This document shows positions 80 through 11,658 of a stretch of 64,000 nt of DNA, one piece after another. The stretch's first letter is position 1. Every line of letters begins with the position of its first letter. A program made the translations under genes and the position numbers. The notes beneath the pieces are model-generated. The model was not told the DNA's origin. It was given only the letters and a program-made list of their open reading frames with translations, and made no database searches. The stretch is from an uncultured Acidobacteriota bacterium (GTDB lineage: Bacteria; Acidobacteriota; Blastocatellia; Pyrinomonadales; Pyrinomonadaceae), in the NCBI GenBank assembly GCA_937859595.1, contig CALMAH010000013.1:1-64000 (forward strand), written 5' to 3'.

Positions 80-694
80 CTAAATGGTTGAGGCGTCGGC
101 GTGGGGGACGAAGCATTTGCGGCAGCGGGCCTCGTATTTATCGGCGGCACCGACCTCGACGAGGGCTTCGGATTCGACCGTACGCTGTGAATAATTTGCG
201 GTGCTGCCGCATTTCACGCAGATGGCGTGGGTCTTGGTTATGAACTCGGCGATGCAGAGAAGCTGCGGCATGGGTTCGAATGGCGTTCCGCGGTAGTCCT
301 GGTCCAGCCCGGCGATTATCACCCGCTTGCCGCTGCCGGCAAGTTCATTTGCTGCGGCGACCAGGCCGGGGTCGAAAAACTGCCCTTCGTCTATCCCGAC
401 GACCTGTGTGTCGGCTTTGATAAGGCCCATCAGCTCTTCGGATGAGGAGACCGGCTGCGAATCGTGTTTATGTCCGGAATGAGACGCGATGTGCTCGACC
501 GAATATCTGGCGTCGATCGCTGGCTTGAACACCTGTACCTTTTGCCGGGCGATACGTGCCCGGTTCAGGCGGCGGATCAATTCCTCCGATTTACCCGAAA
601 ACATCGAACCGACGATCACCTCGATCCAGCCGGTCCCGTTCTGCCGGTTCTTGCGGCGCTCTTCGTTCGTGTCGAACGCAAATTCTTCTACCAT
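80..694 (-). CDS. tdk: Thymidine kinase
   Basis: Cytosolic type II thymidine kinase, phosphorylating thymidine to dTMP with ATP in the pyrimidine salvage pathway. The 204-aa product has the P-loop GSMFSGKS at residues 29-36, the DEGQFF motif (residues 102-107) carrying the catalytic Glu103, and the lasso-domain zinc site with Cys159/Cys162 and Cys191/Cys194. The common DEAQFF has Gly for Ala here, a mild change. A roughly 20-residue charged N-terminal extension precedes the core fold. The ATG start lies downstream of a hairpin that ends the gpmI homologue, so tdk probably has its own promoter. Family assignment is firm. Confidence 0.95.
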
Positions 695-792: not shown

Positions 793-2340
793 TTAGGTTA
801 GACGCAGGTCGCTGCCGGTCATCTCCGCCGGTTTTTCGATACCCAGCATGGCGAGTATTGTCGGGGCCACGTCTCTCAGCGAACCGTCGGGCCTCAGCGG
901 AGCGACGCCCGTCCTGGGATCAACGATGTGGAACGGAACACGGTTGGCGGTCGCAAACCTGTTGGGTTCTCCGCGCTCGTCAAGCATAGACTCGCAGTTG
1001 CCGTGTGATGATGTGATAACGGCAATGCCGTCTGCCGCTTTCACCTTTTCGACCACTCCGCCAAGACAGGTATCCACATACCGGATCGCTTCTATTGTGC
1101 GTTCCAGGCTTCCGGTCTCGGCAAGCAAACCCGGTGCGGGAAAATTGACGACGAAAACTCCGCCATTGTCGCCCTCGATCCCCCGCAGCACTTTGTCAGC
1201 TATCTTGAAGCTCCGCATCTCGGGCTCGGCCTCGCGGATCGCCGAGTCTCCCGATGCGACCTCGATGTGCTTTTCCAGTTGGCCGCCTCCGTCAAATCCG
1301 CAGTTCAATATCTTTGTCACGTGGCTGAATCGGTCGGTCTCCGAGATACGGTAATTGCTGATCCCTCGCTCGGTGAACACAGCGGCGAGCCCGTTCGGCT
1401 CCGCCTGCTGCTCGAAAGCGACCGGCAGCCCGAAGGCCTTGTCATACTCCGTCAGACAAACGGCCTCGATATTCGGCTTGGCAGCAGCCATGACCAACCC
1501 ATGGTCGGGAACCGCCAGCGAACGGACCAATTGCCGCATCGTGTCTGCACGATGATTGAAAAAGACGACGAGGTCGCCGTGGCTGACCGTCGTCATCGGG
1601 ACTCCGGGCTCGGATTCAATAACGATAGGGGCAATGAACTCATCGGAAATACCCCGGAGGAAAGAGCTGCGAACCGCCGAGACAGGGTCTTGAGCGCGTT
1701 CACCCTCGGCCAACGCCATCATTGTGAAGGCCCTAGCCGTCCGCTCCCAGTTCTCGGAACTGTCCATCGCGTAAAACCGTCCGCAGAGCGTCGCTATACG
1801 CCCGACGCCGATGTCAGCCAGCTTGATCTCAAGTGCCTCAACATAAATATCTGCGGTCCGCGGCGGGACATCGCGGCCGTCAAGGATGCCGTGGACGAAA
1901 ACATTCTCTATCTCAAGCCGCTTGGCCTTTCGCAAAAGAGCGTAGAGGCTGTCCATCGAAGAATGGACCTCGGCATCGCTGATCATACCGACAAGATGGA
2001 TGTTGCTGCCGCGTGCCTTTGCATCCGAGAACGCCTTGCACAAAACGCCATTCTGAAAGAACTCTCCCGTACGAACGGATTCACGGATGGTCGAATAAAC
2101 AGATCGGACCACGCGGCCGGCACCGATATTCATATGCCCAAGTTCGGCGTTTCCTGCCGCTTCGGGCCCAAGGCCTAGCTCTTCTCCCGCCGAAGCGAGC
2201 GTGGTCCAGGCAAATGAACTGCGTATCTCATCGTAATTAGGCGTGTGCGCGGCGGCGATCGCGTTTCCTGCGGCGTCGGCAGATGTTCCCCAGCCATCGA
2301 TTATGACAAGAACAAGAGGACGTTTCGTATTTGAACTCAT
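793..2340 (-). CDS. gpmI: GpmI-like phosphoglycerate mutase homologue, active site degenerate
   Basis: Full-length homologue (515 aa) of cofactor-independent phosphoglycerate mutase, which interconverts 3- and 2-phosphoglycerate using two Mn ions and a phosphoserine. The fold landmarks are present: IIDGWG at 13-18, VHS near 125, DGRD at 154-157, GRFYAMD near 187, and the C-terminal EMTG. Key residues are not. The phosphoserine in GNSEVGH is Ala65 (GNAELGH). The metal ligands D and H of the NPDMVGH motif are Gly404 and Glu408. ADHGN reads SSHGN, and the late His ligand is Ala463. Active-site Arg and Lys positions read Ser194, Thr267 and Arg337. Asp15, His126 and His446 remain. The frame is open throughout, so this looks like a maintained pseudoenzyme or an altered function, not a broken gene. 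I chose the ATG at 2340; a GTG 60 bp upstream gives a non-homologous extension. Family certain, mutase activity doubtful. Confidence 0.9.
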   Translation of the reverse strand: MSSNTKRPLVLVIIDGWGTSADAAGNAIAAAHTPNYDEIRSSFAWTTLASAGEELGLGPEAAGNAELGHMNIGAGRVVRSVYSTIRESVRTGEFFQNGVLCKAFSDAKARGSNIHLVGMISDAEVHSSMDSLYALLRKAKRLEIENVFVHGILDGRDVPPRTADIYVEALEIKLADIGVGRIATLCGRFYAMDSSENWERTARAFTMMALAEGERAQDPVSAVRSSFLRGISDEFIAPIVIESEPGVPMTTVSHGDLVVFFNHRADTMRQLVRSLAVPDHGLVMAAAKPNIEAVCLTEYDKAFGLPVAFEQQAEPNGLAAVFTERGISNYRISETDRFSHVTKILNCGFDGGGQLEKHIEVASGDSAIREAEPEMRSFKIADKVLRGIEGDNGGVFVVNFPAPGLLAETGSLERTIEAIRYVDTCLGGVVEKVKAADGIAVITSSHGNCESMLDERGEPNRFATANRVPFHIVDPRTGVAPLRPDGSLRDVAPTILAMLGIEKPAEMTGSDLRLT

Positions 2341-2504: not shown

Positions 2505-2933
2505 TTAGTAGGCGTTTGGGGCCGGCCTTTCCATCCATCTTTCCGGATGGCAGAGAGGCGAGAAACCAAACTGTTCATAGAGCCCGTGGGCATCGCGGGT
2601 ACCCAATATCCAGCGGCGCAGGCCCTGAAGCTCGGGGTGCGAGATCATCGCTTCCATCAGCCGTTTACCAAGCCCGCGCCCGCGAAATTCTTCGATGATA
2701 AAAACATCTCCGACATAGGCGAATGTCGCTTTATCGGTAACGACACGTCCAAACCCTACCTGTCGCTCACCGGCATAAACTCCGAAGCAAATTGAGCTTT
2801 CTATGGCCGCTTTGGTCTGATCCAGGGTACGGTCCTTTGCCCAATAGGCCTCGTTTACAAGAAAACTGTGTATAAAACCTATGTCCAGACGTGTGCGGTC
2901 CAGGTCGATAACGATCTCCAAAACTTCGCTCAT
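2505..2933 (-). CDS. GNAT family N-acetyltransferase
   Basis: A 142-aa single-domain GNAT acetyltransferase that should transfer acetyl from acetyl-CoA to an amine. The acetyl-CoA pyrophosphate-binding motif RGRGLGKRLM sits in the middle of the protein after the beta-strand FAYVGDVFII, and the C-terminal part ends in the typical HGLYEQFGF segment with a Tyr positioned as general acid. The substrate cannot be told from sequence. It is followed 4 bp upstream (in gene order) by an unrelated HEAT-like gene ending at 2938, so the two may be cotranscribed. Confidence 0.85.
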   Translation of the reverse strand: MSEVLEIVIDLDRTRLDIGFIHSFLVNEAYWAKDRTLDQTKAAIESSICFGVYAGERQVGFGRVVTDKATFAYVGDVFIIEEFRGRGLGKRLMEAMISHPELQGLRRWILGTRDAHGLYEQFGFSPLCHPERWMERPAPNAY

Positions 2934-3510: not shown

Positions 3511-4818
<1,308 letters not shown>

Positions 4819-10209: not shown

Positions 10210-11658
10210 ATGAGAAAAGCAAAGATCCTCGCCACACTAGGCCCGGCCTCAAACGACGAGAAAACGATACTCTCGCTAATAAAAGCCGGTGTCAACGCGG
10301 TCAGGATAAACATGTCCCACGGTACTCGGGAAGAACACCAAAAGGCGATCGAGAATGCCCGTGCGGCAGCGCGTGGCATTGCCCAGCCCCTGGCGATCTT
10401 GGTCGATCTGTCGGGGCCGAAGATCCGAACTCGCGGGCTCAAGGGCGGAAAGCCGGTCGAACTGGTTGCCGGCTCGAATTTCACCATCACTGCCCGCGAT
10501 ATCGAGGGCGACTCCACCCAGGTGGCCACGAACTATAACGATCTTCCCGACATGCTGGGGCCCGGGGCAAAGGTACTCATAGACGATGGCGCCATCGAGC
10601 TGGTGGTAGTCTCCGTGAACGGCCCCGACATGCTCTGCAGAGTGGTGGTGGGCGGCTATCTTAACGAACGAAAAGGCATCAACCTTCCAAACACGCATCT
10701 GCCGATTCCTTCGATGACCGAAAAGGACCACCAAGATCTCGAATGGGCAATGGCGCAGAACGTTGACTACATTGCCCTGTCGTTCGTCCGAAGGGCTGAC
10801 GATTGCCGAAACGTCAAGGACCGCATAAAGGCACTCAATACGCGTCGGATGGGCCGCGCCCTTCTTGTGGCCAAGATCGAAAAAGCAGAAGCGATCGAGA
10901 ACCTAGATGAAATAATTGCCGAAACTGACGGTGTAATGGTCGCGCGTGGAGATCTGGGCGTCGAGACCTCGGTCGAACATGTCCCCGTATATCAAAAGCG
11001 GATAATAGAGCGGGCAGTTGCGAATGATAAATTTGTGATAACTGCGACACAGATGCTCCAGTCAATGATCGACAACCCGCAGCCGACACGTGCCGAAGCA
11101 TCAGATGTGGCGAACGCCGTCTGGGACGGCACGGACGCCGTAATGCTCTCGGCCGAAACTGCAACCGGCAGCTATCCCGTAGAGACGATCCTAACAATGG
11201 GTCGCATAATCGATGCCGCTGAAACGATCGGGCCGGAGCAGCTCAAGAAGCCGGTCAAATTCTCCCTACCCCCATCCGGACGGACCAGCCAGGCGCTCTG
11301 TAAGGCCGCAGCCTACGCAGCCAAGGAAGCCGGCACGGAAAAGGTCGCCGTTTTTACCGAATCGGGTTTGATGGCACGCCGTCTCTCATCTTTCAGGTCG
11401 GGACTTCGTACATTTGCACTTACGACATCGCAAAATGCCTGTAACCAACTTGCTTTGATCTGGGGCGTACAGCCGTTTGTTCACGAGATCCCCTGGGCTA
11501 CGCAGGAAATGCTCAAGATCGGTGAGAGGACATTGCTGGAGGCAGGAGTCGTGGAAAACGGCGAACAGTTGATCATGATGGCTGGACGGCTGTCTGGGCT
11601 TGGCCTCTCAAGTTCGGTCATTGCATGGACGATCGGGGAGGATATCCCCAAACGTTAG
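10210..11658 (+). CDS. pyk: Pyruvate kinase
   Basis: 482-aa pyruvate kinase making pyruvate and ATP from phosphoenolpyruvate and ADP. Visible motifs are RINMSHG near the N terminus, VDLSGPKIRTRG, the signature region AKIEKAEAIENLDEI with the catalytic Lys, the metal-binding VARGDLGVE, ITATQMLQSM and the effector-domain entry SAETATGSYPVE. The C-terminal domain (about 355-478) is the usual allosteric alpha/beta domain. Length is standard and all catalytic landmarks are intact, in contrast with the phosphoglycerate mutase homologue at 793-2340. Confidence 0.98.
   Translation: MRKAKILATLGPASNDEKTILSLIKAGVNAVRINMSHGTREEHQKAIENARAAARGIAQPLAILVDLSGPKIRTRGLKGGKPVELVAGSNFTITARDIEGDSTQVATNYNDLPDMLGPGAKVLIDDGAIELVVVSVNGPDMLCRVVVGGYLNERKGINLPNTHLPIPSMTEKDHQDLEWAMAQNVDYIALSFVRRADDCRNVKDRIKALNTRRMGRALLVAKIEKAEAIENLDEIIAETDGVMVARGDLGVETSVEHVPVYQKRIIERAVANDKFVITATQMLQSMIDNPQPTRAEASDVANAVWDGTDAVMLSAETATGSYPVETILTMGRIIDAAETIGPEQLKKPVKFSLPPSGRTSQALCKAAAYAAKEAGTEKVAVFTESGLMARRLSSFRSGLRTFALTTSQNACNQLALIWGVQPFVHEIPWATQEMLKIGERTLLEAGVVENGEQLIMMAGRLSGLGLSSSVIAWTIGEDIPKR

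Follow-up and report, generated by a model that had tools for sequence, protein, structure and literature searches.

A GpmI-derived protein lacking most of its catalytic residues is retained alongside GpmA in a genus of Pyrinomonadaceae

The window, which is the whole stretch of 64,000 nucleotides that was analysed from an uncultured acidobacterium of the Pyrinomonadaceae, encodes a protein that descends from iPGM and that its sequence marks as a pseudoenzyme; the loss of mutase activity itself is inferred. The loss of catalytic motifs, the presence of GpmA, the order of events, purifying selection, the reversal between the two domains and the clustered fixation of once-variable positions are shown at the level of sequence. 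For the GpmI homologues of the window's genus (g1), it is very likely that the mutase activity was lost and the protein retained, an inference drawn from the sequence alone. The explanation that we prefer, with moderate confidence and in the absence of biochemical, expression or partner data, is a GpmI-derived pseudoenzyme that was freed by the takeover of its reaction by GpmA and is retained because its transferase (T) domain serves in binding or assembly.

When positions 793-2340 were read on the + strand there were six stops, and the frame on the - strand was open over 515 aa (Table 1). The product scored 461.8 bits against TIGR01307, above the cut-off of 330.65, and both PF06415 and PF01676 were above cut-off, so that homology extended over both domains. 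The strict functional equivalog NF003897 was not met (372.9 bits against a cut-off of 862). The protein was 37% identical to Geobacillus stearothermophilus iPGM, and the alignment with the structure of that enzyme (1EJJ) was gap-poor across residues 5-512 with an E value of about 1e-114. An AF2 model, built with only 8 sequences as input and with a pLDDT of 77, matched 1o98/1ejj at a TM score of 0.88 in Foldseek, thus the fold is retained. TIGR01307 would call an active mutase here and is in this case an annotation trap. A scan for a promoter belonging to this gene gave no more sites than shuffled sequences did.

Table 1. Coordinates of the pseudo-GpmI gene, its altered codons and domains, and neighbouring genes in the window
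Feature	Position	Strand	Remark
Pseudo-GpmI coding sequence	793..2340	-	515 aa, ATG at 2340, stop included (ends 793)
T domain, residues about 80-313	1402..2103	-	Remodelled on the stem branch of the clade with gpmA; under constraint afterwards
Codon 65, Ala for catalytic Ser62	2146..2148	-	
Helix residues 161-178, RTADIYVEALEIKLADIG	1807..1860	-	Once-variable face, inferred to be exposed; now the slowest-evolving element
Codon 194, Ser for substrate Arg191	1759..1761	-	
Residues 198-231, two further helices	1648..1749	-	Newly fixed, less charged positions A202, T206, L228, I231, inferred to be at the surface
Codon 267, Thr for substrate Arg264	1540..1542	-	
Codon 337, Arg for Lys336	1330..1332	-	
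Codon 404, Gly for metal ligand Asp403	1129..1131	-	
Codon 408, Glu for metal ligand His407	1117..1119	-	
Codon 445, Ser for metal ligand Asp444	1006..1008	-	SSHGN
Codon 463, Ala for metal ligand His462	952..954	-	
Thymidine kinase-like gene (tdk)	80..694	-	Downstream; right flank of clean gpmI deletions; named by inspection
GNAT-like acetyltransferase	2505..2933	-	Between enolase and gpmI; named by inspection, no family scan
Enolase, intact	3511..4797	-	Syntenic neighbour in canonical and pseudo-GpmI genomes
Pyruvate kinase, intact	10210-11658	+	Same window

In the alignment to 1EJJ the catalytic serine was replaced (S62A, Ala65 in the window protein). D403G, H407E, D444S and H462A left only D12 and H445 of the two-metal site, and of the substrate residues R191S, R264T and K336R were changed while H123, R153, D154, R185 and R261 were kept. 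The roles of these residues as metal ligands or substrate contacts, which we take to be those in the G. stearothermophilus structure, were not computed. Because the protein failed on the catalytic serine, the metal ligands and the substrate residues alike, it was not classed as an active GpmI, and it very likely cannot run the phosphoserine mechanism, although this again rests on sequence and not on an assay. The S62A change has also been made in iPGM in the laboratory, and the crystal structure of that mutant is on record (1O99). A relocation of the catalytic residues to other parts of the protein was ruled out, since the alignment leaves few gaps in which they could have moved. The initial annotation had claimed the loss of the catalytic Ser, of most metal ligands and of three further residues (Arg, Arg, Lys) in an open frame of 515 aa with the fold retained. 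All of this held, with every change confirmed against 1EJJ; it had given no strand. It had named ligands at other positions as a refuting case, and the alignment with GpmI did not bear this out. It was also right about an intact enolase adjoining the gene, an intact pyruvate kinase in the window and a functional mutase encoded elsewhere.

That mutase is a canonical GpmA of 246 aa (P0002), located on another contig of the window's genome (G000:C3:86904-87641). It scored 420 bits with the dPGM equivalog NF010713, for which the cut-off is 305, and carries the RHGE and HGN motifs (LIRHGESEWN, AHGNS). The proposed search for a second gpmI, a gpmA or an apgM thus returned gpmA, and no second GpmI and no ApgM was found in this genome of 3.8 Mb, which is 98% complete. 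PF01676 matched the phosphopentomutase DeoB, the pseudo-GpmI and, weakly, one phosphodiesterase-like protein, and DeoB was the sole protein above cut-off apart from the pseudo-GpmI. Since a canonical GpmA is present without a second GpmI or ApgM, the 3PG/2PG step is inferred, by family membership, to be covered by GpmA in this organism.

To place the window protein among its relatives, 15 active-site residues were scored in 104 sequences together with the gpmA status of each genome; all named relatives are metagenome-assembled genomes. A GpmI match was present in 101 of the 119 genomes of the order, and gpmA was concentrated in genera g1, g21-24, g31-33, g38 and g46. All 39 canonical sequences, from other Pyrinomonadaceae genera, had an intact active site (15/15). 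In contrast, the 32 alignable g1 sequences (31 genomes and the window) scored only 5-8/15, yet were full length or nearly so, and 30 of them had Ala or Pro at the position of the catalytic Ser. The loss is therefore far beyond chance, and the 31 other g1 genomes exclude a sequencing or assembly error as the cause of the changes in the window. Between these extremes, the gpmA-bearing genera reached 15/15 in g31, 14/15 in g33 and at best 12/15 in g21 and g23. In a FastTree phylogeny calculated without the active-site columns, the GpmI sequences of the gpmA-bearing genera formed one clade with a support of 0.976, sister to the canonical family members. Fitch parsimony required at least seven changes at S62, six each at R264 and D403, five each at R153 and K336, and four each at H407, D444, H462 and R191, so the active-site losses were parallel across several genera. 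Residues kept clade-wide were R185 (53/53), H123, D154 and H445 (51/53 each), and D12 and R261 (50/53 each). Duplication followed by decay was rejected, as a canonical copy never occurred together with a degenerate one in any genome searched, and the synteny with enolase is common to canonical genomes. A search across the class for a spread outside Pyrinomonadaceae gave no match above 44% identity.

Several sequences stood apart in this census. Two genomes (G064 and G065, 85% and 91% complete) had an altered GpmI with no gpmA detected. Two sequences, L012 (G015) and L028 (G016), had lost the metal ligands and yet had a Ser where the catalytic one is expected; the closest sister of G015, G012, has Ala there, suggesting that the position is now drifting. 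One genome of the canonical group (G119, L104) had an intact GpmI together with a GpmA that is less closely related (64% identity), possibly a second acquisition or contamination, which is listed at 6%. In a relative from the class (G057, L052), D12 was replaced by Ser and H445 by Asn with the other 13 active-site residues intact, and this could be decay at an early stage that began separately beyond the family.

The order of events can be read from the intermediate genera. A signature of 24 residues, 17 of them within the T domain, differed consistently between the clade and canonical GpmI; all clade members carried 16-24 of the 24, the other sequences fetched 0-3 and 1EJJ 4. In g31 (four genomes) and g33, where the active site is intact or lacks a single residue, the signature was already at 20-21/24. 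On the stem of the clade the branch length was 0.465 substitutions per site for the T domain compared to 0.156 for the phosphatase (P, metal) domain. Thus, on the evidence of the sequences, the T domain was remodelled before the metal site was lost. Several genomes of g21 and g23 still had most metal ligands although their substrate arginines had changed, which agrees with the same T-first order. After the stem the relation between the domains was reversed: the P-to-T ratio of tree lengths was 0.64 among canonical Pyrinomonadaceae, compared to 1.70 within the window's genus.

Close pairs within g1 gave dN/dS values of 0.06-0.10, estimated by simple counting in which no correction for codon bias was applied to synonymous sites. 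The T domain had the lower dN/dS in 4 of 5 close g1 pairs, and the P domain in most canonical pairs. With enolase distances of these loci as the reference, rates exceeded those of canonical GpmI by a factor of 4 in the P domain and of 1.6 in the T domain; therefore overall constraint is relaxed, and this accounts for part of the rate pattern. Nearly all carriers, at 48-70% identity, had full-length open frames. Together with the low dN/dS, they rule out a simple pseudogene, for which a disrupted frame or a neutral ratio would be expected, and a protein that has lost its catalytic motifs and kept its fold under selection meets the definition of a pseudoenzyme. A dN/dS near 1, which had been named beforehand as refuting, was not observed. 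In one genome (L037, G002:C40:33702-35221) the GpmI frame seems to be interrupted near residue 475 and the final 37 residues lie in a different frame, possibly by recent decay or an assembly error.

The retained constraint was concentrated in one part of the T domain. After normalization to enolase, the rate of residues 161-179 fell from 3.53 in canonical GpmI to 1.71, half the canonical rate, and residues 198-245 evolved at 0.8 of the canonical rate, whereas segments of the P domain were 3-6 fold faster. Of 126 canonically variable positions 22 are now fixed, and 11 of the 22 lie inside residues 161-231 (permutation p 0.0004, with the segment chosen after inspection); for the T versus the P domain overall, the Fisher p value was 0.03. 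In the helix 161-178, the fixed R161, D164, E168, I172 and A175 are on the side opposite the hydrophobic face. I172 replaced a variable residue, and in the helices 198-212 and 219-231 charged residues became neutral or hydrophobic (E to A202, D to T206, E to L228). That these helix faces are exposed is an inference from the periodicity of the helices and from the variability of canonical GpmI, and not a measurement on coordinates. The pattern resembles a newly acquired protein contact surface, which remains an inference without coordinates or partner data. The suggestion that the protein is 'regulatory or carries another activity' can thus be sharpened to a decaying metal/phosphatase domain and a T domain, especially residues 161-231, that holds the retained constraint.

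In the model that we favour, GpmA, a cofactor-dependent mutase, would have taken the 3PG/2PG step in an ancestor shared by a group of genera, and the T domain of the single GpmI would have been extensively remodelled at about the same stage. The P domain, freed from catalysis, would then have lost the serine, the metal ligands and the residues that bind the substrate, separately in several genera, while the fold stayed. The pseudo-GpmI would be kept for a job of the T domain that needs neither the phosphoserine nor the di-metal site, most likely the binding of a protein partner or of itself via the putative interface on helices 161-178, 198-212 and 219-231. With H123, D154, R185 and R261 of the T-side pocket kept, the protein may still be able to bind a metabolite with a carboxylate or phosphate group, which could modulate this role. 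A bolder reading, which we hold to be possible but less likely than not, is that a core enzyme of glycolysis, once an unrelated enzyme ran its reaction, turned into a protein dedicated to assembly or regulation without catalysis, whose T interface evolved first, while the enzyme was still workable, followed by repeated loss of catalysis; such a protein may control GpmA or enolase.

Two other functions were considered and found unlikely. A new catalytic activity could reside in the T-side pocket or use a mononuclear metal site formed anew by D15, E408 and H446. This is supported by the clade-wide retention of D12, H445 and the four pocket residues, by a frequency of 0.88 for E408 in the window's genus, and by the new R161, T162 and H263, which adjoin old substrate residues in the sequence. 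However, positions 407 (E/Q/R/K/Y/T/S/N/A/G/H) and 403 (D/G/T/A/S/E) were highly varied across the clade, unlike a conserved new metal site, and the metal domain is the fastest evolving. Alternatively, the protein could be a metabolite sensor that regulates GpmA or enolase by binding 3PG, 2PG, 2,3-BPG or PEP in the T-side pocket. The kept pocket, the coincidence of the clade with gpmA and the location near enolase in most mapped genomes speak for this. Against it, the substrate-binding R191, R264, K336 and often R153 are lost, the adjacency to enolase is equally old in canonical genomes and so not specific, and GpmA occurs without pseudo-GpmI in some genomes.

The window protein shares with GpmI (TIGR01307; 1EJJ, 1O98 and the S62A mutant 1O99) its descent, length, both domains, fold and place near enolase, and differs in lacking Ser62, four metal ligands and at least three substrate residues and in its rewired T domain. 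The dPGM and iPGM are non-homologous isofunctional enzymes with gene displacement between the two forms (Foster et al. 2010, PMC2964296). As in those systems, one form has here replaced the other, with two-form genomes as intermediates; in those systems both forms are taken as active or one is lost, whereas here the displaced GpmI persists, constrained and apparently inactive. That study left open whether bacteria with two mutases represent early displacement or the ancestral state, and the graded intermediates from Pyrinomonadaceae bear on this question. A single family presents side by side GpmI alone, GpmA with an intact remodelled GpmI, and GpmI that is partly dead, dead but conserved, or deleted. 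This suggests that a secondary role can both come before and outlast the catalytic function of a metabolic enzyme known from textbooks. Other pseudoenzymes, such as the T. brucei AdoMetDC prozyme (PMC5201418; reviewed in PMC10211241), likewise conserve a fold under selection without the catalytic motif, but the origin of the pseudo-GpmI involved no duplication of its own gene and followed takeover by an unrelated enzyme, and the genome holds no active paralogue for it to regulate. PhpG (NF038358, phosphonoformyl transferase) is likewise a PGM-family protein with a changed role; unlike pseudo-GpmI it is annotated as a catalytic transferase, and NF038358 appeared here only as a weak family match of DeoB. 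In the literature searched, which mostly excluded subscription papers, we found no inactive conserved GpmI family, no GpmI pseudoenzyme and no relevant GpmI moonlighting.

Enolase was close to gpmI in most mapped genomes, canonical and degenerate alike, and the gene therefore changed in place. In G035, G036 and G019, gpmI was cleanly deleted between GNAT and tdk, with enolase, GNAT and tdk present. In G029 (L185:1700-2280, - strand) a remnant downstream of GNAT, with the tail TPAEMTGSDLRMG followed by a stop, matched the C-terminus of GpmI and is evidence that the remainder was deleted. From these deletions and the remnant we infer that the function of the pseudo-GpmI is useful and not essential, and that the gene is dispensable. 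They could also suggest a displacement still under way, in which GpmI became useless after GpmA arrived and is slowly dying, with deletion not yet everywhere. The mosaic parallel loss of active-site residues and the faster overall evolution would agree with this view. It is nevertheless unlikely and already disfavoured by the full-length frames in nearly all carriers, the low dN/dS, the halved rate of residues 161-179 and the clade-wide new residues of the T domain. Neither slow decay nor new catalysis nor a metabolite sensor is excluded by experiment. In genus g23, gpmI was absent from most genomes, and about 3 kb of other sequence lay between GNAT and tdk (L187-L189).
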